Positions 11,144 to 29,182 of a stretch of 48,286 bases of DNA are shown in pieces. The position numbers and the translations under genes are program-made. Source of the stretch: Opitutales bacterium (GTDB lineage Bacteria > Verrucomicrobiota > Verrucomicrobiia > Opitutales > UBA2995). Numbering within the stretch: position 1 is the stretch's first letter; each line of letters begins with the position of its first letter. Location of the stretch: NCBI GenBank assembly GCA_022824405.1, contig JAJDZZ010000064.1, positions 1-48,286 of the forward strand. Direction: 5' to 3'. The notes under the pieces are model-generated. The model was given only the letters and a program-made list of their open reading frames with translations, was not told the DNA's origin and did no database searches.

Positions 11144-11148
11144 GCCGG

Positions 11149-12120: not shown

Positions 12121-13554
12121 CTAATCCTCCAAAACCCAGATGTCTTTTCCGCCCCCGCCCTGGCTGGAGTTCACTACCAGGCTACCTTCGCGGAGGGCTA
12201 CGCGGCAGAAGGCGCCCGGGACGATTCGGGTCTTATGACCGCGGAGCAGGAAGGGACGCAAGTCCACGTGACGGGCCGCGGCCTGGCCATCGATCATGCA
12301 AGGCGCGCGGGAAAGTTGAAGCGTCGGCTGCGAAATGAAATCAGCGGGATTTTTGCGTAGCTCCTTCGCATAATCCTCGCGCTCCTCGGGTGTCGCGTGG
12401 GGACCGACCAGCATGCCGTATCCACCCGATTCGCCCACGCGTTTCACCACCAGACGATCCAGATTGTCCAAAGTGTACTCAAGGTCTTCCGGACGTCTGC
12501 AGATATGGGTTTCCACATTGGCCAATAGCGGTTCTTCGCCCAGGTAATAGCGAATCATGTCCGGCACATAGGCGTAAACGCTCTTGTCGTCCGCCACCCC
12601 GGTGCCGGGCGCGTTGGCCAGAACGATGTTTCCCGCCTTGTAAACACTCATCAACCCGGGGACGCCGAGGAGGGAATCGGGCCGAAAAACCAGGGGGTCG
12701 AGGAAATCGTCGTCAACCCGGCGATAAATCACGTCCACCCGCTTCAAACCGGAAGTCGTCCGCATATAAACGAATCCATCGTTGACCAGCAGGTCGCGGC
12801 CTTCCACCAAGGCCGCCCCAATTTCATGGGCCAGGTAAATATGCTCGTAGAAAGCGGAATTGTACACACCCGGAGTCAACAACGCCAAGCACGGCTCCTC
12901 CCGATCGCTCGGAGCAAGCTCCCGAAGGGTCTTTCGCAAAAGACCTCCATAGTTTTCGACATCCCCAACCCGGCAACTGCGGTAAAGGCGCCGCAGGTTT
13001 GTCTTTACCGCTTTTCGATTGGCCACCATGTAGGATACGCCCGAAGGTACGCGCAGATTGTCCTCGAGCACCTTAAATCCCTCGTTCGTGCGCACCAGAT
13101 CGGTGCCGCATACCGCCACGTAGATTCCGTGCGGCACTGGGACCCCGCGCATCTCCAGGCGGTAATGTGGGCATCCCCGGATCATATCGACGGGGATGAC
13201 ACCGTCTTCTACTATGCGGGCCTCGCTGTAGATATCCTTCAAAAATCGATTCAGCGCTTCCAGCCGCTGGGTGAGGCCGACATCGATTTGTCGCCATTCC
13301 GCCGCCGTAAGTATGCGAGGCAGGCAATCGATGGGCATGATTCGCTCATTGGCCTCGTCGTCTCCGTATACCGTGAAAGTGATGCCTTCGTTGGAAAAGG
13401 AATTGGTCACCCGCTCCTGCATCCGGTTCAGTTCCTCCACGGGAAGCCGGAGCAGCGCCTCATAGAGGCTTCGGCAGTGTTCGCGCGGGGTTCCGTCCGA
13501 CAGAAACATCTCGTCGTAAACCGCGTCGTCCAGTTCGTAGGTATCGAAATCCAT
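12121..13554 (-). CDS. Circularly permuted type 2 ATP-grasp protein (COG2308)
   Basis: A 477-residue protein of the DUF404/DUF407 family, close to the usual length. Recognisable parts are the N-terminal region with VYGDDEANERIMPID, the glycine-rich VVKRVGESGGYGMLVGP nucleotide-binding loop in the C-terminal half and the terminal VNSSQGGGGKDIWV. ATP-grasp enzymes form carbon-nitrogen bonds through acyl phosphates; in this operon the likely product is a peptide or amide later processed by the transglutaminase. First gene of the operon; the start at 13554 has no competing upstream gene. The substrate is unknown. Confidence 0.9.
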   Translation of the reverse strand: MDFDTYELDDAVYDEMFLSDGTPREHCRSLYEALLRLPVEELNRMQERVTNSFSNEGITFTVYGDDEANERIMPIDCLPRILTAAEWRQIDVGLTQRLEALNRFLKDIYSEARIVEDGVIPVDMIRGCPHYRLEMRGVPVPHGIYVAVCGTDLVRTNEGFKVLEDNLRVPSGVSYMVANRKAVKTNLRRLYRSCRVGDVENYGGLLRKTLRELAPSDREEPCLALLTPGVYNSAFYEHIYLAHEIGAALVEGRDLLVNDGFVYMRTTSGLKRVDVIYRRVDDDFLDPLVFRPDSLLGVPGLMSVYKAGNIVLANAPGTGVADDKSVYAYVPDMIRYYLGEEPLLANVETHICRRPEDLEYTLDNLDRLVVKRVGESGGYGMLVGPHATPEEREDYAKELRKNPADFISQPTLQLSRAPCMIDGQAAARHVDLRPFLLRGHKTRIVPGAFCRVALREGSLVVNSSQGGGGKDIWVLED

Positions 13555-14358: not shown

Positions 14359-15159
14359 ATGGCTTCTTTCCTGAAAAAATATCCTAGGTCCTTTGCCCTG
14401 AAATCAATCGGTTTGGCCGCCAGTATCCTGGTGGTCACGGCAGTTTACGAATTTGTCGTCCGGCCCGCCGCGGAATCGGACTTTGAGAAAGGGGTTGAGA
14501 TATCGGCTGAATCCGGGCAAACGCCATTCTCCCTTTGGATTGTGATCAAGGACTATGAGCAGCAGTTCTGCTTCATATTGTGTCTCTGGGGATTGTTCCT
14601 GCTCGCCCTGAAGATAAAGGATTCGATTGTCGAAAACAAAGGGCTGGAAGTCGATTACCTGGAACTCGGCAAAGAGGATCGCCTTAAAAAGGAGGATGCA
14701 CGGCCCGTGCTCTGGAAATTGGAGCGGGGGAATGAGGCTACCAGCCAGACCCTCTACTTTCGCACGATTTACCGAACCATGGAGTTTTTTCGCTTTGCCA
14801 ACTCACTGGAGGAAATCACCAATGTGGTAAAGAACGCCTGTGAGGCCGAATTACTGCGCCTCGATTCGGAAATGAGCATGATACGCTACATAGCCTGGGC
14901 TATTCCATCGATAGGGTTCGTAGGAACCGTGCGCGGTATCGGCCTTGCCCTGGGCAAGGCTCAGGCTGCATTGGAAGGAGATATTTCCGCGGTGACGGCT
15001 AGTCTGGGCACAGCTTTCAATTCGACCCTGGTGGCGCTACTTCTCAGCCTGGTTTTGATGTTCGTGGTTTACCAAGTGCAACGCATGCAGGAACAGTTGG
15101 TATTGGATGTCGAGAAAACGGTTAATGACGGGGTAGTTTCCAAACTTCATATCAGCTAA
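14359..15159 (+). CDS. MotA/TolQ/ExbB-type proton channel protein
   Basis: A 266-residue inner-membrane protein. Predicted TM helices lie at about 14-34, 67-86, 175-198 and 217-239, with a cytoplasmic loop of about 85 residues between TM2 and TM3. The family signature is in the last two helices: AIPSIGFVGTVRGIGLAL (TM3) and SLGTAFNSTLVALLLSL (TM4), which line the proton pathway in ExbB/TolQ/MotA. ExbB-type pentamers need a partner with a single TM helix carrying an aspartate (ExbD/TolR/MotB). No ordinary ExbD follows; instead two vWA proteins with an aspartate-bearing N-terminal helix do. First gene of a five-gene operon; 17 nt to the next start. The N-terminal hydrophobic helix is an extension compared with TolQ. 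Confidence 0.88.
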   Translation: MASFLKKYPRSFALKSIGLAASILVVTAVYEFVVRPAAESDFEKGVEISAESGQTPFSLWIVIKDYEQQFCFILCLWGLFLLALKIKDSIVENKGLEVDYLELGKEDRLKKEDARPVLWKLERGNEATSQTLYFRTIYRTMEFFRFANSLEEITNVVKNACEAELLRLDSEMSMIRYIAWAIPSIGFVGTVRGIGLALGKAQAALEGDISAVTASLGTAFNSTLVALLLSLVLMFVVYQVQRMQEQLVLDVEKTVNDGVVSKLHIS

Positions 15160-15176
15160 TTTTCCTGGCAAATCGG

Positions 15177-16673
15177 GTGACAAAGAAGCGGTTATTGGGA
15201 ATCGAGATCAGTGACCTGGGCGTGACGGCAGCTCGATTGAGCGAATCGGGCGCGGAACTCCTGCCATTGGGTTCCGATTCCTTGGAACTGTCCGGATTCG
15301 CGCTGTTGACGGGCAAGGGAGAGGTAGAGTTCGGCAAGCCTGCTTTTGAGCAATCCCTGACCTCGGAACTGGCGGTCGATAATCGGTATTGGTACCGGTT
15401 GGCCACGACGGAGGAAGATTCCGGAAGGAAGATTCGGCGCAGGTCTCAACCCGGCGATTCCGAGTTGGCGCAGGCACACCTGCAGGCGGTGATTGAAAAA
15501 TGCCTACGACTCGAAGGCCGGATTGACGAAGTTGTGCTGGGGGTGCCGGGGCATTTCAAGCGTTCCAAGTTGGGATGGTTGATTCAGGCAGCCCAGGCGG
15601 TTGGAATGCGGGTAAAGCATGTCATGGATAGTTCCTTGGGGGCGCTTCTTTCGGCTTCCGAGGTTCCGATTACCGGATCGTTTGCGGTCATGGATATACA
15701 TTGGAATACGGCCGAAGCAGTGCATGTCGTATCGAAAAATTCCGGCCTGGAACGCCGCGATGTGGCAGAGGATCGGGTTTTGGGTCTGCGTCAGATTCTT
15801 GACCGCTTGGTGGAGGGGCTTGCCAAGCGCTTCATAGACGAATGCCGGTTCGATCCTTCGGCTCGGCCGGAATACGCTCAACAACTCTACAACCAGTTGT
15901 TGGCCTATTTATCCGACCCGAACGGAGCCTCGGTTTGTAGACTGCAGACCGGTAAAGGGGCTATTTCAACCGATCGCAGCGCTTTGGCGGAAATGATTGG
16001 GAACGAGCTGAGGGGTTTCAGCGATTTGGCAGGCAGGGCGGTTAACCAAGCGACCGACTCAAGAGATTGTACGGTATTTTTCTCGTCCAGAATCCGCCTT
16101 GTCCCTGGGTTGTTTGAAATAATTTACCAGGACTACGCCATCAAACCCCGCCTGATGGAAAAAGGACAGGCCGCAACGGGCGCTGTGGCATTCAGAGGCG
16201 CCTTGAGCGATAACCAGGCCGTCGATGAGCCCTTGTTTCACACGGCGGTAAAATTTGAAGCAAGCCGGGAGAGAACGAGCCAGGCGGAATCGATGCGTCC
16301 GGGCCGGGTCTACCATTCCGGGAGAGAAGGAATACTGGGTCCGACAAATCCAACCCACTTGTTATTTCAGGGACGGTTGCTCGAACTACCGGAATTTGGC
16401 GGCGCCGACTTTGCCATCGGTAAAAGCAAATCCATCCCCTCGGGTTTAGCAGTGGCCGAACCCGTGAAAGGTCTTGCCCAATGCCACGTGTTGCTTCGCA
16501 GAAAGGAGGATGGTTCGATTGAATTAACGCGTAACGGAAATAATCTAACCTGGGTAAATGGAGAATCCTTTTCCTCGAATGACGCCATCACTCTGCAGGT
16601 GGGCGATGTGCTCACTCTTGGCGAACCTGTGTTGCAGGTTATGATTGTGGGAATGGCAAGGGACGATGCGTAG
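15177..16673 (+). CDS. Degenerate Hsp70/actin-like ATPase fused to an FHA domain
   Basis: A 498-residue cytoplasmic protein beginning with GTG. Residues 5-340 follow the Hsp70/actin fold: an N-terminal GIEISDLGVTAARL strand pair, VVLGVPGHFKRSKLGWL (Hsp70 VPAYF equivalent), AVGMRVKHVMDSSLGALLSA (helix-strand of Hsp70), and MDIHWNT where Hsp70 has DLGGGT. The altered phosphate loops suggest weak or absent ATP hydrolysis. Residues about 395-492 resemble a forkhead-associated domain (GKSKSIPSG, CHVLLRR, NGESFSSNDAITLQVGDVLT), which would bind phosphothreonine peptides. It sits between the proton-channel gene and the first vWA gene, overlapping the latter by 8 nt. A cytoplasmic regulator or assembly factor of the channel complex is the likely role. 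Both domain calls are by eye. Confidence 0.68.
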   Translation: MTKKRLLGIEISDLGVTAARLSESGAELLPLGSDSLELSGFALLTGKGEVEFGKPAFEQSLTSELAVDNRYWYRLATTEEDSGRKIRRRSQPGDSELAQAHLQAVIEKCLRLEGRIDEVVLGVPGHFKRSKLGWLIQAAQAVGMRVKHVMDSSLGALLSASEVPITGSFAVMDIHWNTAEAVHVVSKNSGLERRDVAEDRVLGLRQILDRLVEGLAKRFIDECRFDPSARPEYAQQLYNQLLAYLSDPNGASVCRLQTGKGAISTDRSALAEMIGNELRGFSDLAGRAVNQATDSRDCTVFFSSRIRLVPGLFEIIYQDYAIKPRLMEKGQAATGAVAFRGALSDNQAVDEPLFHTAVKFEASRERTSQAESMRPGRVYHSGREGILGPTNPTHLLFQGRLLELPEFGGADFAIGKSKSIPSGLAVAEPVKGLAQCHVLLRRKEDGSIELTRNGNNLTWVNGESFSSNDAITLQVGDVLTLGEPVLQVMIVGMARDDA

Positions 16674-17751
16674 ATCGATAGACGACAATTTCGGGCTGTC
16701 CTTTCTGGATGCCATTACCTGCGGTTTTGGAGCTGTGATCCTCTTGTTCGTTCTGACAGCTTCAAACGATCGGAGCTTGCGTAATGAGGAAACGGAGGAC
16801 CTCAGGGGCGAGGTCGATACTTTTGATGAGGAATTATTGGATGGGCGTGAACGGTTAGCCGTCCTTCGAAACACACTGTTGGAAACAGAGGACAAGATCG
16901 TTACTGCTCAAGGTCTGGCCGATGAGGTTATCCGTGAAACTCAGAACCTGGAGGAGGAAATCTCGCTCCTGGACAATGAAACCATAGCCAAGCTTGAACA
17001 TCTCAATCAGCTCAAGGCAGACGTCGAGGCCAAAAAAGAGGCGCTCCTGGCTCAAAGGGGTTCCCCGAGCATGGATCCCGGGCAGGACTTACTTCGCCGC
17101 CAAGGAAACAACCGCCAACAATATTTGACGGGGCTCAGGACAGATGGTCGGCGATTGGTATTACTTGTGGACCGATCTCTGAGCATGACCGGTGAAACCT
17201 TACCCGAAGTACTGGCCATGAAGGATGCAAGTCCCCTTGAGCGGCAAAGTAGCGGAAAATGGCTACGTGTATTGGAGGCGGCCGAGTGGTTGCTCGCAAC
17301 CATGGTCGAAACAGAGTTCTTTCAGTTGTTTACCTTTAGCGAGACTACGGAACCTGTTTTGACGGATCGGGGAAATGACTGGTTGGAGACTTCGCCTGAA
17401 ACCATCGAAGCGGTAGTCGACCGGCTTCGGGAGGTCGTCCCTGAGGGCGGGACGAATCTGGAGCGCGCCTTTCGACAGATTCAAAGATTTTCCCCCAAGC
17501 CCGATAATGTAATTGTAATCACCGACGGCCTCCCTACCCGGGGGGATTCGGCCGCGTTGCCCTCCGATCAAGTCTCGGGCAATGATCGCCTGCGGGCATT
17601 TGCAATGGCGGAACGCGCCATCCCTTCAGGGGTACCGGTAAACGTAATCCTGTTCTATCTCGAAGGGGACCCCGAGGCATCGAGTAGTTATTGGGACTTG
17701 GCCTTACGCCACAACGGCTCCTTCTTCTGTCCTGCTGAAAGCTGGCCCTGA
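16666..17751 (+). CDS. vWA protein with ExbD-like TM helix, paralogue 1
   Basis: A 361-residue protein; I use the start at 16666 (MRRSIDD), which overlaps the preceding stop, rather than an upstream ATG at 16645. The charged N-terminus precedes one TM helix LSFLDAITCGFGAVILLF (residues 11-28); D15 aligns with the proton-binding aspartate of ExbD/TolR (PFID in E. coli ExbD). A coiled coil spans about 40-130. A vWA domain follows (160-361) with MIDAS residues in VDRSLSM (D169, S171, S173), a threonine in EGGTNLERAF and D287 in VITDGLP. The positive-inside rule puts the vWA head in the periplasm. It pairs with the next gene, a paralogue of the same design, 5 nt downstream. Confidence 0.8.
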   Translation: MRRSIDDNFGLSFLDAITCGFGAVILLFVLTASNDRSLRNEETEDLRGEVDTFDEELLDGRERLAVLRNTLLETEDKIVTAQGLADEVIRETQNLEEEISLLDNETIAKLEHLNQLKADVEAKKEALLAQRGSPSMDPGQDLLRRQGNNRQQYLTGLRTDGRRLVLLVDRSLSMTGETLPEVLAMKDASPLERQSSGKWLRVLEAAEWLLATMVETEFFQLFTFSETTEPVLTDRGNDWLETSPETIEAVVDRLREVVPEGGTNLERAFRQIQRFSPKPDNVIVITDGLPTRGDSAALPSDQVSGNDRLRAFAMAERAIPSGVPVNVILFYLEGDPEASSSYWDLALRHNGSFFCPAESWP

Positions 17752-17756
17752 TTTCC

Positions 17757-18728
17757 ATGAAACGTAGAAGAAAAGGCGCTTTTTCGGTCTTCAGCCTGTC
17801 CTTTCTGGACTGCATAAGCTGTGGTTTCGGAGCAATAATTCTGCTCTTTGTCATCTTTCGCGGATCGCATCCTCAGATTCTTGAAAAGGTTGAGGTCGAA
17901 CTTGAAGGACTCCTGCAAGACAGGGAAAATGCAATCTTCGAGATTCGCGGCGATACGTTAAGGACCAACCTGGATCTGGAGCGAGCCCTGGAGCAATTAT
18001 CCGAATTGGAAGACAGGGTTGCGCAATTGCAACGACGCTTCAGCGAGGCACAAGGGCAGTATGCCGCCAGCGATGCTCGTGCCCGCAAACAGGCCGGTGA
18101 TGAAGAGAGTCTGAAAAGGGCGCTTCAGAATTTGGACCTTTCCCGTATGCCGGAACAGAAACCGACCAATGTGGTGGGTGGAATACCGGCCGATAGCGAA
18201 TACGTCATTTTTGTGATCGATACATCCGGGTCCATGGACCAGTTCGAGCGTTTGGTCGCACGAAAGTTGCAAGAAACGCTTTTCGCTTTCCCGAATTTGA
18301 AGGGCATCCAGATCATGGACGCGGATGGCAACTATTTGTTTTCCGGAACGGAAGGCACTTGGCTGAGTGACTCGCCCAGCGAAAGAAGGAGATTGATGGA
18401 TCGTTATCTCAACTGGAATTATGACAGTGGAAGTAATCCGGCCCCGGGTATATTAACCGCGATTACCGACTTCAATGACGGAGAGAATAAAATCAGCATC
18501 TTCGTCTTCGGCGATGAAATGGATTCGGGAAATCCGACAGAGTTTTTATCGATTGTAGAACGAAATAACCCGAAGCTGGAAAACGGAGATTATTTGATCC
18601 GCATACACGGAATAGGGTTTTTTACCGATTATGCCTTCTCCGGCCCTACCGGGAAAAATTTTGCGGATATCATGCGTATCCTTGCCCTTCGCAATGGTGG
18701 CGCGTTTGTGGGAATTACCGATCGCTAA
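17757..18728 (+). CDS. vWA protein with ExbD-like TM helix, paralogue 2
   Basis: A 323-residue protein with MKRRRKG at the N-terminus, a single TM helix LSFLDCISCGFGAIILLF (14-31, aspartate D18), a coiled coil (about 40-125) and a vWA domain (146-323) with MIDAS motif IDTSGSM (D155, S157, S159). The TM motif is almost identical to that of the preceding protein, while the vWA domains differ strongly, so conservation is concentrated in the membrane part that would contact the ExbB-like channel. Two different subunits suggest a heterodimeric stator like ExbD2 or TolR2, with vWA heads outside. The stop codon overlaps the start of the next gene (TAATG). Confidence 0.8.
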   Translation: MKRRRKGAFSVFSLSFLDCISCGFGAIILLFVIFRGSHPQILEKVEVELEGLLQDRENAIFEIRGDTLRTNLDLERALEQLSELEDRVAQLQRRFSEAQGQYAASDARARKQAGDEESLKRALQNLDLSRMPEQKPTNVVGGIPADSEYVIFVIDTSGSMDQFERLVARKLQETLFAFPNLKGIQIMDADGNYLFSGTEGTWLSDSPSERRRLMDRYLNWNYDSGSNPAPGILTAITDFNDGENKISIFVFGDEMDSGNPTEFLSIVERNNPKLENGDYLIRIHGIGFFTDYAFSGPTGKNFADIMRILALRNGGAFVGITDR

Positions 18729-19726
18729 TGGCAGAAGAATCGCAACAGCCGTCGGCTAAGCCAGAGCAGTTTCCGGGTTGGATTCCGGACTGTGACCTCA
18801 TGAGACTCGTCCGTTTGGTTAGTCTCAGTCCTCTTTCAACCCGAACGCGGGATCTAGCCCGGATATCTCACTTACCGAGCGAATGCGACATCTCCCAATC
18901 TTCTACTGCGCTCCGGAATGACGGCGCTGGAGCGGATTTCCCTGGATTCGGGTCTTTGCAGGGTGTCAACCCGGCTGCCCCTTCTGTCCCGACCGGCGGT
19001 TCCCTGCTGGCGGGGAAAAAAGTGGTTATCCGTACGCTTCAGGACGACCATCAACCATCCGATGTAGCGGTGGCGAGTTCAGAGGACGGCCACGTCCAGC
19101 GGCTACCCCAATACACAGGTTCGCCCGGCAAAAGCCGCCTGGTATTTCATTGCCTGATGGCAGCGATTGGAGCGCTGGTTTGCATGGCCCTCGTATCCTG
19201 GCTGGCGATGAAGAAATTGGATTTCACTAACATAAAAACTTTTCCAGGATCAGGCTCGGATGACATTGATTTGCTGGTCGAGCCGGGTGAGGCATTACCC
19301 GATTTTACGGGGCATTTGCTAGTGCAGGGAGTCAATCAATGGAACGATACCGTTTCTACTGAGGATCTCATCGGAAAAAACACGGTCATGCTGGTTTGGG
19401 GATCCTGGAATGAGGAACTGCTTTCCTGGTCGCAGGACTTGAATTATCAGCGCCTGGTCGATTTCGATTCATCCAACACCCGGTTTCTGGGGTTGAACCT
19501 GGACAAATCCCGGGAAGATGCGATGGCGACGCTCAATGAAGATATGGCCGGTTGGCCGCAAATCTTCAACTACTCGGAATACCAGGAATCCGCAGCTCAC
19601 CCCATGCAAATCCTTGGCATTCAACAATCGCCCTTGATTTTGATTATCGATTCCACCGGACGACTTCGTGCCCAGGGTTTGAAACCGGGAGAAGTGGTTG
19701 AGGCTTATCGGACTTTGTTTGAGTAG
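18728..19726 (+). CDS. Membrane-anchored thioredoxin-fold protein without CxxC
   Basis: A 332-residue protein, last gene of the plus operon. Residues 1-135 are low in recognisable structure and probably cytoplasmic. One TM helix follows (about 137-161, CLMAAIGALVCMALVSWLAM), then a TlpA/thioredoxin-like domain (about 185-332). The fold is suggested by LPDFTGHLL, NTVMLVWGSWNEELL, FLGLNLD and the cis-proline region IQQSPLILIIDSTGRL. At the active-site turn the sequence is WGSWNEE, with no cysteines, so it cannot be a redox enzyme and is more likely a binding domain in the periplasm. It ends 9 bp from the end of the convergent operon. Confidence 0.65.
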   Translation: MAEESQQPSAKPEQFPGWIPDCDLMRLVRLVSLSPLSTRTRDLARISHLPSECDISQSSTALRNDGAGADFPGFGSLQGVNPAAPSVPTGGSLLAGKKVVIRTLQDDHQPSDVAVASSEDGHVQRLPQYTGSPGKSRLVFHCLMAAIGALVCMALVSWLAMKKLDFTNIKTFPGSGSDDIDLLVEPGEALPDFTGHLLVQGVNQWNDTVSTEDLIGKNTVMLVWGSWNEELLSWSQDLNYQRLVDFDSSNTRFLGLNLDKSREDAMATLNEDMAGWPQIFNYSEYQESAAHPMQILGIQQSPLILIIDSTGRLRAQGLKPGEVVEAYRTLFE

Positions 19727-19735
19727 AGAGTCGAT

Positions 19736-20242
19736 TTAGGTTTTAGACCAATGATAGAGCAGGGAGACGACGGATACGATCAAGGCAATGATTGCTGTTG
19801 CGATACCGATTAGAGTAATAGCGCGAAACGACGACAGTTGTTTTTCGTTTTCTTGCGATGCGAGCCGTGCTTCCAGGAACAACTTGAGGGAAATATAGCT
19901 TTGAAGGTCCGAATCGCTGGCTTCCGTGTTGTCGAGGTAGGTTTGCAGGCTTTCCAGGGCGCCGGCGAAGTCGCCCCTTTCCTTGCGCAGGTAGGTCAGG
20001 TAAACGGCGGCGTCCGGTGAGTAGTAGGCTGCGAGCGTTTGTTCAAATAAGGTTTCTGCCGCAGGATAGTCCCCGGCTTGGTATGCGGCCAATCCTCGGC
20101 GGTAAAGCATTTCGGATTTTTCTGCGCTTTGGATCGGGTTGGGCGAAGGCTCCTCTGCCATAACCTGGGGGGCAAACAGAGACGCCAAGAAAATCAGCAG
20201 AGCGATTGGCATGGATCGGCGGATGTATTTCATGGAAACCAT
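19736..20242 (-). CDS. Small TPR protein with C-terminal TM anchor
   Basis: A 168-residue protein. A signal peptide (about 1-29, ending QVMAEE) precedes two to three TPR units (about 43-110: YRRGLAAYQAGDYPAAETLF is a clear repeat) and a C-terminal TM helix (about 143-163). The layout, exported TPRs with a tail anchor, resembles BatE-type proteins found with vWA BatA/BatB proteins in Bacteroidetes, which fits the vWA proteins opposite. It is the last gene of the minus operon and converges on the thioredoxin-fold gene with 9 bp between their stop codons. Confidence 0.7.
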   Translation of the reverse strand: MVSMKYIRRSMPIALLIFLASLFAPQVMAEEPSPNPIQSAEKSEMLYRRGLAAYQAGDYPAAETLFEQTLAAYYSPDAAVYLTYLRKERGDFAGALESLQTYLDNTEASDSDLQSYISLKLFLEARLASQENEKQLSSFRAITLIGIATAIIALIVSVVSLLYHWSKT

Positions 20243-20280
20243 AGCATGGTTTTCAGGGAGAAAGGTGTGGTGGTGAATGG

Positions 20281-20304
20281 CGCTTAACTAAGCGCTATTC
20301 GGGT
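20281..20304. repeat. Dispersed palindromic element, copy 2
   Basis: Second copy of the 24-nt CGCTTA-AC-TAAGCG element at 122-145, with one base changed. Its last base is the first base of the stop triplet of the upstream minus-strand gene. It is within the gap of 61 nt between two genes of the same operon, so full termination here would separate the small TPR gene from the rest. Confidence 0.6.
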
Positions 20305-21392
20305 TATAGGTTTCCTTTGAGCAACTGATTGATATGTACGGAGCCGGCCTTGTTAATCGGAGGATTCTCCAACTCATCCGGCTCGGAACCGCTTGGAGTT
20401 AGTGATTCAGATGGCGCTATCGTTTCCGGAGCATCGGCAGTAGCGGGTTCGGCCGATTGCGGCGACGGTTCCATCTCAGGCTCCTGGGTTTGTCCTGACT
20501 GCCCAGCCGAGTTGCCTGATTCCGGCGACTCGGTTTGGGGGTGAGTTGATGGCGTGGAAGTCTCGGTCCCATCGAGCTCTCCCTGGGGAGTTTGATTTTG
20601 CATCTCGGGCGTTGCTTGTTCTGTCCCGGAATTCTCCTCGTGAGTCCCGGTTCTCTGGGAAAGTACCTTCAGAATTCCGCTATCTTCAGGACCGTTATTC
20701 GTTCCTTCAGAAGTTGATCCGCCCTCTGAGGATTCAGGTGAAATTTCGTTATTCCCTACCCCTTGAAGGATTCCGGAAATGGTTTCGCCGGATCCATCCG
20801 CGGGAATGTCTTTCGGGCTTTCAGACGCGCTGCCTGATCCATCCTTGGGGACAGTTTCCAAGCTTTCAGGCTCGCTGGGGATAACATAGTTGGACGAAGC
20901 AGGTCTTTCTGTGGTGGAGCTTCCCCTTTCAGCGTCTTCCTTTTCCCGCCCCAATTCCAAAGTGGAATCTCCGGAATAAACCCGAATCGGCTGTAAGCCC
21001 GAAGGGGGAGGATTAGTTTGACCGGTTGGAGGATTTTCCCCGAAATCGATATTTATTCGACCGACGGTGCTACTGGAAAGGGCCGGATTTTTGCTTATCA
21101 AATCCCTCCTGATCTCTGCCAGTTCGTTTTGGGTTCTAATCGCCTCCTTTTCATTGGAGACCGGGCCGAAAAACAGGGAAAGGTTCTCATGATTGTATAC
21201 GACGTAGTAGCCTTCCACGGCAGGGAAATAACCATCCGGAATGGATCGAGGCTTCCAACGGACCTCGATACGAGCGGGCCCCAATTGGACCAGATCGCTC
21301 AACGCGGCGGGCGGGAATATGAGCGTCTTACCAGCCAGATCAACCCAACCAAAGATGACCGCAAAGACAAGTATTGGAGAAATGAGCTTCAA
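20304..21392 (-). CDS. Secreted low-complexity protein, possible SPOR-like domain
   Basis: A 362-residue protein with a signal peptide (about 1-21). Residues 22-120 form a compact domain with a GYYVVYNHENLSLFFGPV strand pattern followed by a helix (NEKEAIRTQNELAEIRRDL). This resembles SPOR domains, which bind denuded peptidoglycan, but I would not call it one without a profile match. The remaining two thirds are a Ser/Glu/Gly/Pro/Thr-rich disordered tail with repeated SPES/ESPE-type words. It is in the minus operon 10 nt from the 128-residue gene upstream. A peptidoglycan-contacting or spacer role is a guess. Confidence 0.6.
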   Translation of the reverse strand: MKLISPILVFAVIFGWVDLAGKTLIFPPAALSDLVQLGPARIEVRWKPRSIPDGYFPAVEGYYVVYNHENLSLFFGPVSNEKEAIRTQNELAEIRRDLISKNPALSSSTVGRINIDFGENPPTGQTNPPPSGLQPIRVYSGDSTLELGREKEDAERGSSTTERPASSNYVIPSEPESLETVPKDGSGSASESPKDIPADGSGETISGILQGVGNNEISPESSEGGSTSEGTNNGPEDSGILKVLSQRTGTHEENSGTEQATPEMQNQTPQGELDGTETSTPSTHPQTESPESGNSAGQSGQTQEPEMEPSPQSAEPATADAPETIAPSESLTPSGSEPDELENPPINKAGSVHINQLLKGNL

Positions 21393-21402
21393 AACACTTG
21401 GA

Positions 21403-21789
21403 TCAAATATCGGCAGGAAATATTTCGGGCTGGTTCAACTCCAGACCGGAGGCGGAGAGGGGGAGTTGCATTTTTTCAAGCGCCGATTGAATCAATGCCT
21501 CCGTTTTGTCACCTTGGGCATTTTCGGATTCCAATTCATTTTCGAGTGATTCGACCATTTTGTCCTGCTTTATATTATCCTTCGATAGTTCCCCCAGAGA
21601 AACGTTTCCCGAACCGGATTCCTCTTCTACTTTGTCATTTTGGGCCTCCAGATCGGCCTCGGTAATTTCCTGCTTGCTGCCGTCAAAGTTGTTCAGCGGG
21701 TCGTCTTTTTCTTCCTGAGCAACCGCCGCAAAGGCCAGGCAACTATAGAATCCCAGAAGCTTCAGGAAGTATTTGAGTAATTGAATCAT
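21403..21789 (-). CDS. Small acidic secreted protein
   Basis: A 128-residue protein of no recognised family. A signal peptide (about 1-24, ending AAVAQEE) leads into a strongly acidic, probably disordered or helical chain with many Glu, Asp, Gln and Ser. No cysteine remains in the mature part and there is no anchor. It starts 14 nt after the PEGA/SUMF1 gene and ends 10 nt before the SPOR-like gene, so it belongs to the same operon and is very likely a periplasmic component of the same system. Confidence 0.6.
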   Translation of the reverse strand: MIQLLKYFLKLLGFYSCLAFAAVAQEEKDDPLNNFDGSKQEITEADLEAQNDKVEEESGSGNVSLGELSKDNIKQDKMVESLENELESENAQGDKTEALIQSALEKMQLPLSASGLELNQPEIFPADI

Positions 21790-21803: not shown

Positions 21804-23927
21804 CTATTCAATAACGATGGGATAGGATCTTACGAGCCTAAAACCCACATCGTCCGCACCGTCCAGCCCGTAGCGCTTGCCGGTGCTGCGCAGTTCGCTG
21901 TCGGTTACAGATCTCCAACTGGAACCTCGAATGAGTCTTTGAGCGCCTTTCTCGGGACCGGCATAGTCCACCAAGGGACGGGGAGAGGTCGGATAGGTGT
22001 AGGAATAGTAGTCCGAGCACCATTCGGCGACGTTACCCCCAATATCAAACAAACCGAGGAAATTGGCATGAAAGGATCCTACCGGGGAGGTGGCCTGGTA
22101 TCCATCCCGGTAGCCGGCAACAGACTGACCGATCATGACTTTGGCTTCCGATCCAGCATAATTTCCGCTCTTCTCAGGAGGCGGCATTTCCTTTCCCCAG
22201 GGATAGATCATCTCAGCCGTGCCTTGATGATAACGAGCCACATACTCCCACTCCGCCTCAGTCGGCAGGCGATAACCATCGCTACGCGGCTCGATCAGTC
22301 TATAGTTGTCTGCCACCAACTGGTAAGCGGGTTTCAAACCCTGTATGTCGCTCAACCAGTTACAGTACTCCACTGCCTCTCTCCAGGAAACCCTTACCAC
22401 GGGTCGATCCCCGGATTGAAGAGAAACTCCGCTTACAATTCCACTTTCGTGGCTTGATTTAAACCTGTTGAATTCCCGGTTGGAAACCTCATGCAAGCCT
22501 ATGTAAAAAGGTTGGCGAATGCGCATTTCCACCGGGGTTTCATCAAACCCCCGACCTGAAAAATCCTGGGGCAGGCCCATGATATAGGTATCCGGCTCGA
22601 TCAGAATCAGTCGATAACCGTAGGGCGATACAACCTCCTTTTGAATATCGTCCTTTTGTGCGATGAGAGACCTGAGGATCTGGTCGTCAGTGAGTTTGCT
22701 GCCTTGGGTTTCGCTGATTAACGCGAAGGAGTAACGGGCCGTTTTATTGGGTTGGGGGCGAAGTTTGTGTGTCTGGGGGGTGTACCCGGCTTTGCGAACC
22801 TCAATGTCATAATCCCCTATGGGTAGTTCCAGATTCAGCGGTGAGAGCCCTTGAATACGGCCATCCAGATAAACCTCCGCTTTGGTAGGTTTTGTTTCTA
22901 TGCGCAGATCCCCCACCAATGGTGGAAGCACAAGCTTGTGCTCGACGGTCTGATCCGGATCGAGTTTCAAGTCGATCGATCTTTCTTCATGGTCGAGGAG
23001 CGAAACCGAGATACTGAGTTCGGTTTTCGACGGTAGCGAAAATGTGCCAGGTGTTTGCCCCAAGGTTTCCCCGTTGACCGTCACCCAGGCTCCTTCCGGA
23101 ATCGTGCTTAAATGTAGGCTGCCGTGTTTCCATTCCAATGCCCGAGTGGGTAGTTTCAGCGTTTGGTTGGCGGGCACCAGAATAGAAAATTGCTGCGGTT
23201 CCCAGTCTTCCATTTCCAAGCGTAAGTCGTACCGCCCCTTTAAGAGGTCCATGCTAATTGGAGTCTTGCCCACTTGCCGGTCGTTCAGGTAAAGGGTAGC
23301 GCCTTCTGGAGATGTATTGAGAGAGACGCGGCTCCATGCGGGTATCAGGGAAACTTCCAGACGAGTTCTTTCCCGCTTACCAAGAACAGAGGCCTTTTCC
23401 TTGTGAGGAAGGTAGTTCTCCGCTTCGACAAGAATTTCGTATTCTCCCGGCTCCAATACGTGGCCGATCAGCGGAGTTTGGCCTATGACGCTACCATCGA
23501 TGCTGATGCTAGCTTGGTCGGGTTGGGTGACGACCGAAAGCAAACCGGGTAGGACGGATAAGGTAATAGCGTATGGGTCCGGTTTACCAAATCGCAGGTC
23601 CAGTATTTCCCGGTGGGCGCTGTATCCTGGGCTGACCACTTCCAGATGGTGTTTTCCCCGTTTTATTTGAAGGACGCCTTCTTCATCCAAAATCTTGTTC
23701 CTACCATTCAAAACTATGGCGGCATCCGCAGGCCGGACATTGAGAACAATTGGGACCGATTGGTTCCAATACCAAATAGATCCCGCGAAAAAAACCAGCG
23801 CCATTACGCCTCCAAATAAAATAGGTGCTTTCCACCGGTAATTTCGCTTTGATTGAACTCCATCTCCCTCGTCCGGGGAGGGAATAACCTGGCTGCCTTG
23901 GGTTACCGTTGTCATGGAGTAGGGCAA
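21804..23927 (-). CDS. Membrane-anchored five-PEGA and SUMF1-domain protein
   Basis: A 707-residue protein. After a short cytoplasmic tail and one TM helix (34-54) come five PEGA repeats (about 60-110, 128-180, 198-250, 268-320, 337-390), each with the xPxxAxVxxDG...G.TP pattern. A formylglycine-generating-enzyme-like (SUMF1/EgtB) domain follows at about 430-705, recognised by LPTEAEWEYVARY, GNVAEWCSDYY and a DDVGFRLV ending. The usual cysteine pair of active aerobic FGE is missing where LIRGSSWRS is followed by SELRSTGKRYG. It is therefore probably a structural or ligand-binding domain and not the enzyme that activates the two sulfatases. PEGA repeats suggest surface or cell-wall contacts. 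Spaced 19 nt from the TPR gene upstream. Confidence 0.85.
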   Translation of the reverse strand: MPYSMTTVTQGSQVIPSPDEGDGVQSKRNYRWKAPILFGGVMALVFFAGSIWYWNQSVPIVLNVRPADAAIVLNGRNKILDEEGVLQIKRGKHHLEVVSPGYSAHREILDLRFGKPDPYAITLSVLPGLLSVVTQPDQASISIDGSVIGQTPLIGHVLEPGEYEILVEAENYLPHKEKASVLGKRERTRLEVSLIPAWSRVSLNTSPEGATLYLNDRQVGKTPISMDLLKGRYDLRLEMEDWEPQQFSILVPANQTLKLPTRALEWKHGSLHLSTIPEGAWVTVNGETLGQTPGTFSLPSKTELSISVSLLDHEERSIDLKLDPDQTVEHKLVLPPLVGDLRIETKPTKAEVYLDGRIQGLSPLNLELPIGDYDIEVRKAGYTPQTHKLRPQPNKTARYSFALISETQGSKLTDDQILRSLIAQKDDIQKEVVSPYGYRLILIEPDTYIMGLPQDFSGRGFDETPVEMRIRQPFYIGLHEVSNREFNRFKSSHESGIVSGVSLQSGDRPVVRVSWREAVEYCNWLSDIQGLKPAYQLVADNYRLIEPRSDGYRLPTEAEWEYVARYHQGTAEMIYPWGKEMPPPEKSGNYAGSEAKVMIGQSVAGYRDGYQATSPVGSFHANFLGLFDIGGNVAEWCSDYYSYTYPTSPRPLVDYAGPEKGAQRLIRGSSWRSVTDSELRSTGKRYGLDGADDVGFRLVRSYPIVIE

Positions 23928-23946
23928 GTTGGAAAGAGTATAAGGC

Positions 23947-25689
23947 TTATAGCTTTTCCTTACAAATCACCTCAATAGGTTCCGGGTTTTCTCCAACTTC
24001 AATCCGAAGGGTATGGCGAACGTCTCGATACATGGGACGGGATCCGACCACGGTGTATTCTCCTGGTCGCAATTCGATGTTCAACTCGAGGGACGGTTCG
24101 AAGTTTCCCACCCGGTAGATTTGGATATTGGTAAGGTTATCCGAAATAATTTTTACCGTTTGCGGTTTGGCTTGCTCTGCCAGAATTTCCTCAAGGAATT
24201 CGATTTTCTCAGTGATTGCTCCCAATGGATCTGCCATTTGGCGCCCTTCCCGCAGGACGATAAGGGCTTTTTCAAATTCGCCGTTGCGCTCATAACTTTC
24301 CGCTTCCAACAGGATCCGTTTCAATTGATCTTCCCGCTCAATTTGGGCTTGGGCATGCAGGAGGCCGTCCTGCGCTACCTGGGAGGCGGGATCGTAATCG
24401 AGCGCTTTGTCAAAGGCATCCCGAGCCGCCGGCCATGCCTGATTTTTCAGTTCCCTTTCACCGGCGGCAATAAGTCGGTCTACGCGTTGGCGTCGTTGTA
24501 ATTCCCTGGCATCCCTTAATGCATTTCTTGCCTGGATATCGCCGGGCATGAGAGCAATAGCTTGTTCCAGAAGTTCAACGGCCAGATTGCCATTTCCTGT
24601 GGCCAACGCGGCTATCCCGTCCCGAGCGGCGGTTTCGAAGATCTCCCGATTCAGCTCCTGGTTAATGGCTTGCAGACGGGAATTGATGTTAACCGAATCG
24701 GGGTCCAGTTCCAACGCTTTCTCATATTCGACCCGGGCCATTGAGTAGAGGCCTTGATCCTCAAATTTGCGACCCTCCCTGAAATGTGCGTATACTTGGT
24801 CGATGGTTTCAGCGCGTTGGAGTTGTTGTGCGACAAAAGGTTCGTCAGGTCGAAGGGCTAGCGCGGTATTCAACGACTCTTTCGCCCTATCGCCATCGCC
24901 TGCATTCAGGGCATCGAGACCCGCCCTTAACGACACCTGAAATTGCTTTTCGCCCTGCTCAATCATTGCCTGGAGATTCGCCTCGATCTCTCCAAGCTGC
25001 CTGAGGGCAATTTGAATTTCCCCGTTTTTCAGGTGTATGTCCGTCTCTGGCAAGCTTGATTGAACGGTGTGGTATGCCTCTGATTCCGTAAAGGAAGCGG
25101 CTTGCGTTTGGAGCCTTGCATCCAATTTTTCGATACTGGATTGCAGACGACCGATTTCCTCGACGTGCAGGTAGGATTCCCGGAGCGCCTCCATTGTGAC
25201 CAGGATCTCCTCGTACCCCTCCTGTGCGGTGCGAAACGATTTTTGGTCCATGGAAGCATTGGCCTCATCGAGCAAGAAAGCGGCCTTTCCAAAAAGGTTT
25301 CGTTGGAAGTCGTAAGTGTGATCCGCGTTGGCTTGGTTCAAAACCGCCGCATTTGCTTCCTCGCGAAGATCTGCAAGCGATTCCGGATCGAGGGCAGCGA
25401 ACGGTTTTGGATGGAAGGAGGACGGTAATTCCGCTTCGGTTGACGGTCGATCGGTCGACTCCTGAACAAGGTTAGAAGAATCCGCCTTGGATTTATCCTT
25501 ATCCGGGCGAAATTGAAAAATGAGCGCCAGTCCCAGTCCAAACAGTAGGATCAGGGCGGTTGGAACCAAACGTCCAGGTTTCGCCTTGGCGGGGGTTTTA
25601 CGGTTGGGAGGAGAAGCTTTTTCGTCCGGTGGAAGGGAAATTTTTTGATAGCCCGAGCCCTTTTCCCGCCTTTCTGGATGGCTACTCAT
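23947..25689 (-). CDS. Membrane-anchored coiled-coil and TPR protein
   Basis: A 580-residue protein. A basic, proline-rich cytoplasmic tail precedes one TM helix (about 41-60, LVPTALILLFGLGLALIFQF). Next is a helical/coiled-coil stretch (about 100-270), then several TPR-like repeats (about 275-480) in which LYSMARVEYEKALELDPDS is the clearest. A C-terminal beta-rich PEGA-like domain has ELRPGEYTVVGSRPMYRDVR. The TPR part is predicted periplasmic and could scaffold the vWA heads. Located 45 nt downstream of the lipoprotein gene and 19 nt upstream of the PEGA/SUMF1 gene. Confidence 0.75.
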   Translation of the reverse strand: MSSHPERREKGSGYQKISLPPDEKASPPNRKTPAKAKPGRLVPTALILLFGLGLALIFQFRPDKDKSKADSSNLVQESTDRPSTEAELPSSFHPKPFAALDPESLADLREEANAAVLNQANADHTYDFQRNLFGKAAFLLDEANASMDQKSFRTAQEGYEEILVTMEALRESYLHVEEIGRLQSSIEKLDARLQTQAASFTESEAYHTVQSSLPETDIHLKNGEIQIALRQLGEIEANLQAMIEQGEKQFQVSLRAGLDALNAGDGDRAKESLNTALALRPDEPFVAQQLQRAETIDQVYAHFREGRKFEDQGLYSMARVEYEKALELDPDSVNINSRLQAINQELNREIFETAARDGIAALATGNGNLAVELLEQAIALMPGDIQARNALRDARELQRRQRVDRLIAAGERELKNQAWPAARDAFDKALDYDPASQVAQDGLLHAQAQIEREDQLKRILLEAESYERNGEFEKALIVLREGRQMADPLGAITEKIEFLEEILAEQAKPQTVKIISDNLTNIQIYRVGNFEPSLELNIELRPGEYTVVGSRPMYRDVRHTLRIEVGENPEPIEVICKEKL

Positions 25690-25734
25690 CGTATGGCAAT
25701 TCCTGAAGGTAACCCGTAGGAAGCAGATAGAGGT

Positions 25735-27045
25735 TTAAATCGAACCGGGAGAATCGACTGGCGCCACGTCTTCCTGACCGGTTTCAATAAGGTAGCGTTG
25801 GCGAATTATTTCCCTGATCTGGCGGAAACGGGAATCGACATCCCCGGTCAATTGATAGGTGCGTCCTTCCAACTCGATGACTTTGGGTTGCAGGCCTTCG
25901 CCTGCGATGTTGCTGATTTCGACCAGTTCTTTGGCTTTCAGGTTGGCGATCTCAATCTTTTCCTTGGCCGCCTCGTAGATGGCAGCGCTTAATCCCAGGC
26001 CGCCCGCTAAAAGGGCGACTGAATCTGCGACTCCGTGGGAGTCGCCTTTCTCAATGGAATCGGACGTGGTTGCCGCCGCAGCTAAAACCGTTAGACCGGC
26101 GAGAATCAAACTGGCAGTTTTCTGGTTTTGGGCGTTAACACGATATTGTTCCATTTCAATGGACAACTGCCTGAACTGTTCACGCCAAGTGTTATAAGAA
26201 GCGAAAGAACCCTCCTGTAGGTTGTCATAATACTCTTCAATATGACCTAACATATCCAGTTCCGTCCCGTGAAGTTGCTGAATGATTTGGTAAGTAGGGT
26301 CGTTTTCAGCCGGAAAGCGTTGAACGTATAGTTCCTGGTTTTCGTTGGTAGCCAGGTAATCGCCAAAAGCATCGGGCGCCAGGTCGGCAGCAAACCGCAT
26401 CTGACTGACCATGCGAATTTTCTTTTGCTCTTCGGGAGTCAAATTATTGCGGACGGCTACCAATTGGTTGGCAATATGGTTGAAAACGGCGTCGTAGGGA
26501 TCCTTGGCCGGCCAACTGGTATAATGGTAATCCGTCGCGAGGGTTCGATACTTTATTGTGTCGTGATACCACACACGTCCGGAAGCATCTTTGGTTTTCA
26601 CCCGCAAAGCAATGGAGTGGCCATCGGATGCCAGAATGGTGGCGTCGACGAATAGATCGGACGATTGCACCTCGCCGGGACTGACAAAGGTGTGTCCCCA
26701 TTGCCCGCTTCGGTCCAACGCGTTTTTCAAAGTGACGGGGAAATAGTGAGTTTCGAGACGACGAATTTTCGGATCGACCGCCTTGTGGTCTATTCTCGGC
26801 GTGCCCGAATGGTCGGTTATCAACAGGCCGCTTCCATCCTCCTCCAGTTTTGCAAGATCCACGCCCGGCTGAAACAGATTGACCGCCACATTGAATTGCT
26901 CGTGTTCCCGATCCTCCAAGTTGGGTTCCATGACCGGGGCATAGAGAACCTCCATCCCAGGGATATAATCCACCGCCGTTCTGGGTGTTGAACAGCCCGC
27001 TAAAAAAAGAACTGTCGCACAGAATGGAATGAAGGTATTATTCAT
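25735..27045 (-). CDS. Putative lipoprotein of the envelope operon
   Basis: A 436-residue protein when started at 27045 (MNNTFIPFCATVLFLAGCSTPR), which gives a lipoprotein signal peptide with lipobox LAGC. A longer frame to 27120 would overlap the upstream gene. The mature part has a beta-rich region (about 30-190), then helices and a hydrophobic Ala-rich stretch (LILAGLTVLAAAATTSDS). The family is not recognised; the N-terminal half resembles the GNA1162/DUF799-type lipoproteins that accompany transport systems only vaguely. It is probably anchored in the outer membrane and would be the outer component of the complex. Confidence 0.65.
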   Translation of the reverse strand: MNNTFIPFCATVLFLAGCSTPRTAVDYIPGMEVLYAPVMEPNLEDREHEQFNVAVNLFQPGVDLAKLEEDGSGLLITDHSGTPRIDHKAVDPKIRRLETHYFPVTLKNALDRSGQWGHTFVSPGEVQSSDLFVDATILASDGHSIALRVKTKDASGRVWYHDTIKYRTLATDYHYTSWPAKDPYDAVFNHIANQLVAVRNNLTPEEQKKIRMVSQMRFAADLAPDAFGDYLATNENQELYVQRFPAENDPTYQIIQQLHGTELDMLGHIEEYYDNLQEGSFASYNTWREQFRQLSIEMEQYRVNAQNQKTASLILAGLTVLAAAATTSDSIEKGDSHGVADSVALLAGGLGLSAAIYEAAKEKIEIANLKAKELVEISNIAGEGLQPKVIELEGRTYQLTGDVDSRFRQIREIIRQRYLIETGQEDVAPVDSPGSI

Positions 27046-27073
27046 CGAAATTCGAAAAAGAGAGCAAGACCGG

Positions 27074-27850
27074 CTATTGCTTTTCGGCCTGCATCCGGTC
27101 GAGGGTGCGTTGATAAACATCGGGAGGTTTCGGTCGGGGTGGAGGTCTGAAAAATTGGGCCAGATCCGGTCGCCAAAGAAACATCATTTCGTAAGTTTGG
27201 TTCATCTTATCATACAATAGAAATCTTTCATCGTAATAGGTTTGGCTTACTTCCTGCATTGCCACAATCGTTTTAACGTCGGCTTCTCGATCCAACATAA
27301 TCCTTTTTGCTTCCTGGCGATTTTGGCTTTCTTCATCGAGCCGCTCCTGCAAGCTGCCTAACGTTTCATAGAGTTGGTTGTCCAAGTCTTCCAAACGCGT
27401 CTTTCCCGATATGCCGAATCGAGCTTCAGAAGATCGCGGTCGCAGAATCGATTCCAGCATGGCCGCCCTCTTACGGTCACGGTAAGGACTCCCAAAGTTG
27501 GAGAGGTTTCGCAATTTTTGAAGTTCCTGCTCTTCCAGTACTATTCTCCGTTCCCTCAGTTCGGACAAGTAGTCGGTTTGGCTGGCGATCAAATCGTCGT
27601 AGTACCGGATATACTCTTCTACCCTGAGGCGGAATGCTCGTTCGTTAGCATTGGAGTCATCCAAGCCCCTGTAAATCGCTCTGGTTTGGTCGAGACTGGC
27701 CTGATTACGCGCCAACTCGCCGGCCGTATCCTCAATCAAGACGTCCAACAATTCCTTGTCCCCGATGGAATCGACCGAGGAGCTTTGAGCAAAAACCTCA
27801 GCCAAGACCAAACACAAGGCCACGCTCAATACTATCGCAATTTTTTTCAA
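27074..27850 (-). CDS. Secreted coiled-coil protein, family unknown
   Basis: A 258-residue protein with a signal peptide (about 1-22, ending EVFAQ). The mature part is highly helical and charged, with long heptad-like stretches (about 35-110 and 145-215), and ends in a proline-rich segment (FFRPPPRPKPP). No cysteines in the mature part. I do not recognise the family. Proline-rich ends often bridge the cell wall. The start is 39 nt after the preceding stop, and the stop lies 28 nt before the chosen lipoprotein start. Confidence 0.6.
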   Translation of the reverse strand: MKKIAIVLSVALCLVLAEVFAQSSSVDSIGDKELLDVLIEDTAGELARNQASLDQTRAIYRGLDDSNANERAFRLRVEEYIRYYDDLIASQTDYLSELRERRIVLEEQELQKLRNLSNFGSPYRDRKRAAMLESILRPRSSEARFGISGKTRLEDLDNQLYETLGSLQERLDEESQNRQEAKRIMLDREADVKTIVAMQEVSQTYYDERFLLYDKMNQTYEMMFLWRPDLAQFFRPPPRPKPPDVYQRTLDRMQAEKQ

Positions 27851-27889
27851 ATAAACCGTGCCGACAGGTCTGATTATAGAAACGGTTAT

Positions 27890-29182
27890 TCAGGGGGTTG
27901 AAGTTGCTGATTTCGTCAGATCCTTCATTTTCTGATACTCCCTCCAGAGTACTTCCTCTTCCTCCGGACTCAACAGCTTTTTCCGGCGAATAATTTCCTC
28001 CTCTATCTCGCCGTTTACTTCCTCTCGAATTTTGAGGTAACGCAGTAAGAGGTCGCGTCTTTTTTCTGTGATCACATTCAGGAATTCCGAATCTTCGAGC
28101 CCCTCATTCAAATCGGTCGGCATCAGGCTCACAGGGTCCAGTTTTACTACTTCGTGTGGAGTGGCCCGGGTACGCATATCGACGATGACGAGCGCCTCGT
28201 TCATCAAATTCTCATTTTCGCTGAACCAACGCGAATAGGTTGCAAACTCAAAGTAATTTTCAGAAAGCAATTGCAAAATATCGGCTACCGCGGGACTGAT
28301 GCCAAGACGGGTAACAAACTTTGGATTTTTAAATGCGTTTTCCAATTCGATTTGGAACCTGGCTACCCTTTCCAGATAGCTTGCCTGGAAATTCTTATAA
28401 GCCTCCGATGCCGAACCTGAAAGCTCCCATTTTTCCGGTGGCAACAGAGAAACCGGCTTCTGTTTCCAATTGGTATGAATTTGCCTTCGATTTGTGGCGG
28501 TTCCATTGTTAAAAGCAAACAGGTAGTCTTGTATTCGCCTTTCCATGACAGAAAATACGGATGCTTCGAGTTCATCCTCCACGGTCTCCGCCTTGCTTCC
28601 CAATACATAGTTGATGGCCCGAGCCATTAGTTCCCCCGACCGGAGATTCTCTCCTGAAAAGTCGATAAATACCTGGGACCGCAAGCGTTCCCACTCAGTA
28701 TCGCGATCGAATAAGCTTTCGTGAATTTGGGTATACTCTTGGACGATTCCTTCGCTCAGCGCGGATAATTGATCGAAGATCTCAGGAAAATCCCCTTGGA
28801 GGGAGGTATTCGGGGGATTGAGGACGGAGCGGATTTCCGCCAACTGCCATTCTCTTTCCACCGCACTACGATTATGGAATTCCCGTTTGTACAGGGACAA
28901 GGCCTCGTTCAAGGCCTCCAATTGAAGGTCGAAATCCTGCTCCGCCTCGAGGTGTTTTCTTACCCAGGAACCGTCCCATAAATTGGAAAGGTTCCTATTC
29001 AAGGTCGGTTTCCCTGCTTGTCCGAATAACGGGATTTGGCCGGCCAATAAAAACAGACATAGCGCCAACCACCGGCCAAACCGTAAGACCTCCGGTCGCA
29101 ACTCTCCATAATTCCGATAAATTAGCCGGACGAGTCCGGATTTTCCCCAGAAGCGAATCGGTAAAATCTCCATTTGGTTCAT
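27890..29182 (-). CDS. First gene of the envelope operon, exported protein of unknown family
   Basis: A 430-residue, mainly helical protein. A hydrophobic segment at about residues 36-54 (WLALCLFLLAGQIPLFGQ) looks like a signal peptide, but it is preceded by an unusually long basic N-terminus. The true start may be downstream, for example a TTG at codon 28; the sequence does not decide. The mature part is rich in Glu, Leu and Arg and ends in charged helices (EEEVLWREYQKMKDL). No known domain recognised. First gene of the minus operon running to 19736, so its upstream region should contain the operon promoter. Confidence 0.6.
   Translation of the reverse strand: MNQMEILPIRFWGKSGLVRLIYRNYGELRPEVLRFGRWLALCLFLLAGQIPLFGQAGKPTLNRNLSNLWDGSWVRKHLEAEQDFDLQLEALNEALSLYKREFHNRSAVEREWQLAEIRSVLNPPNTSLQGDFPEIFDQLSALSEGIVQEYTQIHESLFDRDTEWERLRSQVFIDFSGENLRSGELMARAINYVLGSKAETVEDELEASVFSVMERRIQDYLFAFNNGTATNRRQIHTNWKQKPVSLLPPEKWELSGSASEAYKNFQASYLERVARFQIELENAFKNPKFVTRLGISPAVADILQLLSENYFEFATYSRWFSENENLMNEALVIVDMRTRATPHEVVKLDPVSLMPTDLNEGLEDSEFLNVITEKRRDLLLRYLKIREEVNGEIEEEIIRRKKLLSPEEEEVLWREYQKMKDLTKSATSTP

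Follow-up and report, generated by a model that had tools for sequence, protein, structure and literature searches.

ExbBD, TolQR, MotAB and ZorAB are 5:2 motors that share the MotA_ExbB fold, two threonines, and a partner protein with one N-terminal transmembrane (TM) helix carrying an aspartate. In June 2025, a further family was predicted (PMC12204202; Mol Biol Evol 2025, msaf138; Fig. 4c-d): the TPH-vWA family, encoded beside tolQ-like genes, in which a heterologous pair of TM-vWA proteins provides a transpore Asp helix and tolR and exbD are absent. The family was found in Proteobacteria and Verrucomicrobia by an Idiomarina-based search, and AlphaFold3 models placed the Asp pair within the threonine ring. 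The same paper (Fig. 4a-b) describes vWA transducers, encoded beside tolQR in PVC bacteria, which bear an SHLS motif and are accompanied by a separate tolR pair. Its text never mentions Hsp70, sulfatase, PEGA or kinase, and 'FHA' appears in it only as FhaC. Our literature search found no papers beyond PMC12204202 that join the domains described here, and no experiments on any member of the gene set.

The window analyzed here, the whole 48,286-nucleotide stretch of DNA, belongs to a 3.39-Mb draft genome of an Opitutales bacterium and contains five genes on the plus strand at 14359-19726. Gene A (14359..15159) encodes a channel subunit of the MotA/TolQ/ExbB family (266 aa; Pfam MotA_ExbB); gene B (15177..16673, with a GTG start) encodes an Hsp70-like protein with a C-terminal FHA domain and no TM helix (498 aa); gene C (16666..17751) encodes the first vWA protein, vWA1 (361 aa); gene D (17757..18728) encodes the second, vWA2 (323 aa); and gene E (18728..19726) encodes a TM-anchored, thioredoxin-fold-like protein (332 aa). 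The gaps of 17, -8, 5 and -1 nt reported in the preliminary description were reproduced from the list of open reading frames, in which the ATG start of C at 16666 lies within a longer TTG-start frame from 16645. The gene identities given there for A to D were also borne out, by Pfam for A, B and C (VWA_2 over the cut-off in C), by profile and fold for B, and by a predicted vWA fold for D, for which the vWA/DUF444 matches were sub-threshold.

By the features described in PMC12204202, A, C and D belong to the kind of system predicted there: a tolQ-like gene with a vWA pair, no nearby tolR or exbD, a TM Asp without SHLS, and the channel threonines. The earlier statement that no described system of this make-up was known must therefore be withdrawn, since TolQ with a heterologous vWA pair was already in print. 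The locus differs from that account in its pseudo-Hsp70/FHA, PEGA-FGE, TPR(-kinase) and lipoprotein genes, which the main text of PMC12204202 does not give as parts of the family. Unlike the partners in the established 5:2 motors, those in A-D are the products of two different genes, with a vWA domain on a rod of ~105 residues and no ExbD or MotB/OmpA-like domain. The PVC vWA transducers likewise combine an inner-membrane vWA protein with a motor, but C and D have neither the SHLS motif nor a tolR pair. Membership in Zorya was rejected: A matched ZorA2 at only 20 bits, and C and D had no ZorB match.

Protein A matches MotA_ExbB (PF01618) at 5e-13, with 49.3 bits against a cut-off of 22.9, placing it within the family, and probably has four TM helices. 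Among solved structures TolQ was its best likeness. Residues T190 and T223 of A align where TolQ carries the threonines of GTV and ALIATA, and both were kept in all 74 A proteins from the loci of the best 80 of 362 relatives and of Verrucomicrobiota. Also invariant in the 74 proteins was R192, in GTVRGIG beside the channel threonine; this position is Trp in TolQ and Leu, Met or Ile in a second tier of channels. From the alignments, R192 is a possible mark of A's family. These second-tier channels (L138-L147) are other MotA/ExbB genes, present in many Verrucomicrobiota, behind which lie genes for two short, dissimilar TM-coiled-coil proteins that lack a vWA head but have TM Asp motifs resembling those of C and D (e.g., LFSFQDIVTSLTGIM and LELLLDTMCNTFGAI in L146). 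Some of these loci adjoin a gene of ~1000 aa. Such channels with paired TM-coiled-coil genes may be further heterodimer motors.

Protein C begins with a short basic N-terminus, followed by a TM helix with Asp15 (SFLDAITCGFGA), a coiled coil and the vWA head. In protein D, a TM helix carrying Asp18 (SFLDCISCGFGA) leads into a single helix of ~105 residues and then a vWA head with an intact DTSGS MIDAS. C and D are paralogous (hhalign E 1.9e-36). The only TM helix of each protein opens with Asp in all 85 complete C proteins and all 90 D proteins from loci of the best 80 of 362 relatives and of Verrucomicrobiota. In the same loci, the DTSGS MIDAS was present in 90/90 D and degenerate in part of C, although part of the conservation of D was selected by its search pattern, which spanned CGFGA and DTSGS and took in part of the D TM motif; the TM Asp, C and A lay outside the pattern. 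The structure predicted for D from a 48-sequence alignment (pLDDT 82.6) has the TM running unbroken into a helix (residues 23-128) and then the vWA domain, and a fold search with this model returned vWA domains. Mean net charge falls from ~+3 before the TM to -3.8 after it; under the positive-inside rule this step argues for a cytoplasmic N-terminus and periplasmic vWA heads. By Pfam, neither C nor D matches ExbD/TolR (PF02472), and when the N-termini of the vWA proteins were compared by profile (hhalign) with the ExbDs encoded in the host genome, no homology was detected, so that the case for C and D as channel partners rests on shared design and not on shared sequence. The SHLS motif was absent from every C or D TM examined. 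The original proposal that the vWA proteins supply the channel's Asp helix finds good support in conservation, topology and co-occurrence, as far as sequence can show.

Protein B is composite. Its FHA domain, at 433-482, scored over the Pfam cut-off and gave a profile match to FHA at 1e-6, while a further profile match was to Ssz1/Hsp70 (4e-7). In the predicted model (pLDDT 88), the nucleotide-binding domain matches the fold of DnaK and Ssz1, an actin-like nucleotide-binding fold, and the C-terminus is FHA, not the Hsp70 substrate-binding domain. The family consensus of B lacks the glycine-rich phosphate and adenosine motifs of Hsp70; because these nucleotide motifs are degenerate, B is probably a pseudo-ATPase.

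Conserved neighborhood was assessed by scanning species genomes with the D alignment, the best 80 of 362 relatives being retained. In these the order is A, usually B, C and D on a single strand, with B missing in some. In one close relative, listed under the name 'Opitutia bacterium', D is 86% identical. Named genomes that also carry the set come from Gammaproteobacteria, Desulfobacterota, Kiritimatiellae, Phycisphaerales and Acidobacteria. One metagenome-assembled genome titled 'Klebsiella pneumoniae' (L120) holds the complete operon in the form usual among marine Gammaproteobacteria and is probably a mislabelled bin. Searches for a mobile origin were negative: the set had no PHROG match and no viral-contig relatives, and no homologues were found on plasmids. 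Of the five-gene neighborhood envisaged in the preliminary description, A, C and D recur in dozens of genomes; E does not belong to the recurring set. Protein E has a TM at 135-164, a sub-threshold Thioredoxin_8 match (16.3 bits against a cut-off of 27) and no CxxC, and its homologue was found only in a sister species of the same genus. A place for E as a core subunit was ruled out on this restriction to the genus, and judging by its homologues E is a genus-specific add-on.

The distribution of A and D was surveyed in 289 Verrucomicrobiota genomes, with presence defined as >300 bits for A and >280 bits for D. The two genes share exactly the same 20 genomes (Fisher p ~3e-31, shared ancestry ignored); the next-best A-like channels score ~120 bits or less. 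The pair is patchy within one family, and within single families and genera both genes are either there or missing. A and D lie within ~4 kb or less of each other in 17 of the 20 genomes and on different contigs in the other three. A functional link in which the proteins do not touch could account for this pattern as well.

As had been claimed, no ExbD is encoded beside A: none was found in the contig, and the seven ExbD matches of the genome are all on other contigs. The other MotA_ExbB genes of the host genome adjoin or lie near ExbD genes, and A does not. Pairing of A with an ordinary ExbD elsewhere, raised at the outset as an alternative, was not upheld by the survey, in which A tracks the vWA2 gene across the 289 genomes while the ExbDs of the genome sit near other channels or also occur in relatives that lack the system. 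One tandem ExbD pair has no channel gene beside it (contig C51:126675-127499; L045 7646-8506); it is flanked by ferredoxin-like and argininosuccinate-lyase-like genes, and its first ExbD is conserved in relatives.

The preliminary description had also drawn the boundary of the system at A-E, which proved too narrow at one end and too wide at the other: E is not conserved, and the set runs on into a convergent block on the minus strand. A-B-C-D makes up one half of a more extensive locus. Among the 50 named loci in which A was preceded by 5 kb or more of sequence, the genes upstream of A included a PEGA-FGE gene (50/50), a lipoprotein gene (50/50) and a TPR gene (49/50). Their homologues in the window (21804-27120) lie on the opposite strand, convergent to A-D, in unchanged internal order. 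They encode a TM-anchored protein with four PEGA repeats and an FGE-sulfatase-like domain (21804..23927, minus strand; Pfam; homologues in 56 loci), a TM-anchored TPR protein (23947..25689, minus strand; Pfam; 49 loci) and a lipoprotein with an LAGC lipobox and no Pfam family (25735..27120, minus strand; 43 loci). The remaining genes of the block, at 19736-21789 and 27074-29182, all on the minus strand, are candidate members placed by position. A 168-aa protein with TPR matches and a hydrophobic segment at each end (19736..20242) is followed by a secreted or anchored protein of 362 aa (20304..21392), found beside A-D in only a few related genomes, and a small secreted-like protein of 128 aa (21403..21789), in the place held elsewhere by a gene of ~90-120 aa between FGE and A. 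Beyond the lipoprotein, a secreted coiled-coil-like protein of 258 aa (27074..27850) takes the place of a small lipoprotein gene of Gammaproteobacteria, and a secreted protein of 430 aa (27890..29182) stands where the long operon has its opening gene.

The lipoprotein gene was found in 8 of the 289 Verrucomicrobiota genomes, all among the 20 in which A and D occur (hypergeometric p ~1e-10), and in one single-contig genome it lies >800 kb from A. The other 12 of the 20 carry a shorter version of the system without it. An N-terminal Ser/Thr kinase on the TPR homologue was confirmed by Pfam in two loci (L079 and L130), and 10 of 53 TPR reading frames are long enough to fit such a fusion; L130 is also adjoined by a separate kinase gene and a PP2C phosphatase gene. 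Catalytic FGE has cysteines near a C-terminal site; near the corresponding RGSSW motif of the FGE domain studied here there was no Cys, and the domain may thus bind rather than oxidize.

Other parts of the window were annotated in passing. At 38226-43564, an AAA_14/DUF4143 ATPase matching the candidate defence family PDC-S01 (1.7e-158) overlaps the gene of a 1363-aa P-loop-like protein without a Pfam or PADLOC match. Judged by eye, a minus-strand trio at 10283-13554 resembles transglutaminase, alpha-E and circularly permuted ATP-grasp proteins. The region 32195-35972 holds a PSD/PSCyt (DUF1592/1588) and DUF1552 pair typical of Planctomycetes-Verrucomicrobia.

How might these proteins work together? 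We consider it likely that A-B-C-D are the core of a PMF-driven envelope motor of the 5:2 type, with the helices of C and D in the pore. The inner-membrane channel would be built from five copies of A. The C and D proteins would pair as a heterodimer, their basic N-termini in the cytoplasm and both TM helices in the pore position of ExbD, TolR or MotB, each offering one proton-binding Asp to the threonine ring of A. Proton flow would then turn or shift the C/D pair, and the long coiled-coil rods that extend the TM helices would carry the vWA heads far into the periplasm, perhaps to push, pull on or grip the PEGA-FGE protein, the TPR protein and the lipoprotein. On the cytoplasmic side, B might gate or assemble the motor and, where the TPR protein bears a Ser/Thr kinase, could read its phosphorylation. 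It is the complex itself that we infer, along with its 5:2 stoichiometry, proton coupling, movement, load and the role of B. A broader reading, offered tentatively and with more doubt than confidence, is that A-B-C-D, the lipoprotein, the TPR(-kinase) protein and the PEGA-FGE protein make up one undescribed trans-envelope machine, with a heterodimeric vWA axle and Ser/Thr phosphorylation control via B, acting on an outer-membrane lipoprotein complex.

Other readings of the locus were weighed against this motor. That unrelated genes were juxtaposed by chance in assembly has nothing in its favor except the draft state of the genome; A, C and D occur together in dozens of genomes of several phyla and thus are not chance neighbors, leaving this explanation a negligible probability. 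More substantial is the possibility that the vWA proteins are TolA/TonB-like transducers standing outside the channel, with a separate ExbD or TolR in the pore. The first vWA family of PMC12204202 is of that type and comes from the same phyla, with its SHLS motif and tolR gene pair, and the channel-less ExbD pair on contig C51 might be thought to provide the missing subunit. However, the TMs of C and D have an invariant Asp in place of SHLS, no ExbD-like gene was recognized beside A in the gene lists of the fetched loci, and the C51 pair, rejected as a hidden partner of A, persists in relatives without A or D (e.g., G002, G004 and G006); we judge the transducer arrangement quite improbable.

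A-B-C-D might instead be a signalling or chaperone module without proton coupling, in which A would serve only as a membrane scaffold. Regulation would fit the Hsp70-like and FHA domains and the kinase and PP2C genes near some homologues, and vWA domains often mediate assembly. Yet both threonines and both Asp residues of the expected proton path are invariant across phyla, which is hard to explain for a scaffold-only role, and we hold such a module to be unlikely.

The proposed motor also has partial analogs among larger envelope machines. In type 9 secretion and gliding, the proton-driven inner-membrane motor GldLM is likewise accompanied by a periplasmic protein of FGE type, GldK. The FGE domain of the window matches GldK at 9e-30, below the GldK cut-off; it differs in being fused to PEGA repeats, and GldL, GldM and GldN had no match among the window proteins searched. 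The threonine-phosphorylation pathway of the T6SS (PpkA, PppA, Fha, TagR) similarly has a kinase, a PP2C phosphatase, an FHA protein and an FGE-like component close to a cell-envelope machine. It differs in that no T6SS genes were noted in the A-D loci and in that an Hsp70-like FHA protein replaces Fha.

Beyond PMC12204202, the present analysis adds co-occurrence evidence and a larger gene set, and removes E from the core. With the exact phyletic match of A to vWA2, and with a lipoprotein that co-occurs even where it is unlinked, what had been a published guess about structure becomes a defined set of ~7 proteins, and the presence of this set in the culturable genera Pseudohalioglobus, Seongchinamella, Kineobactrum and Sediminihaliea opens it to co-expression, purification and deletion. 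The pseudo-Hsp70/FHA subunit and the kinase fusions suggest a regulated motor, an aspect unmentioned in the text of PMC12204202. If the proposed motor is real, ion-driven 5:2 motors would also accept heterodimer axles with periplasmic rods and vWA heads, and their axles would not be confined to ExbD, TolR, MotB and ZorB.
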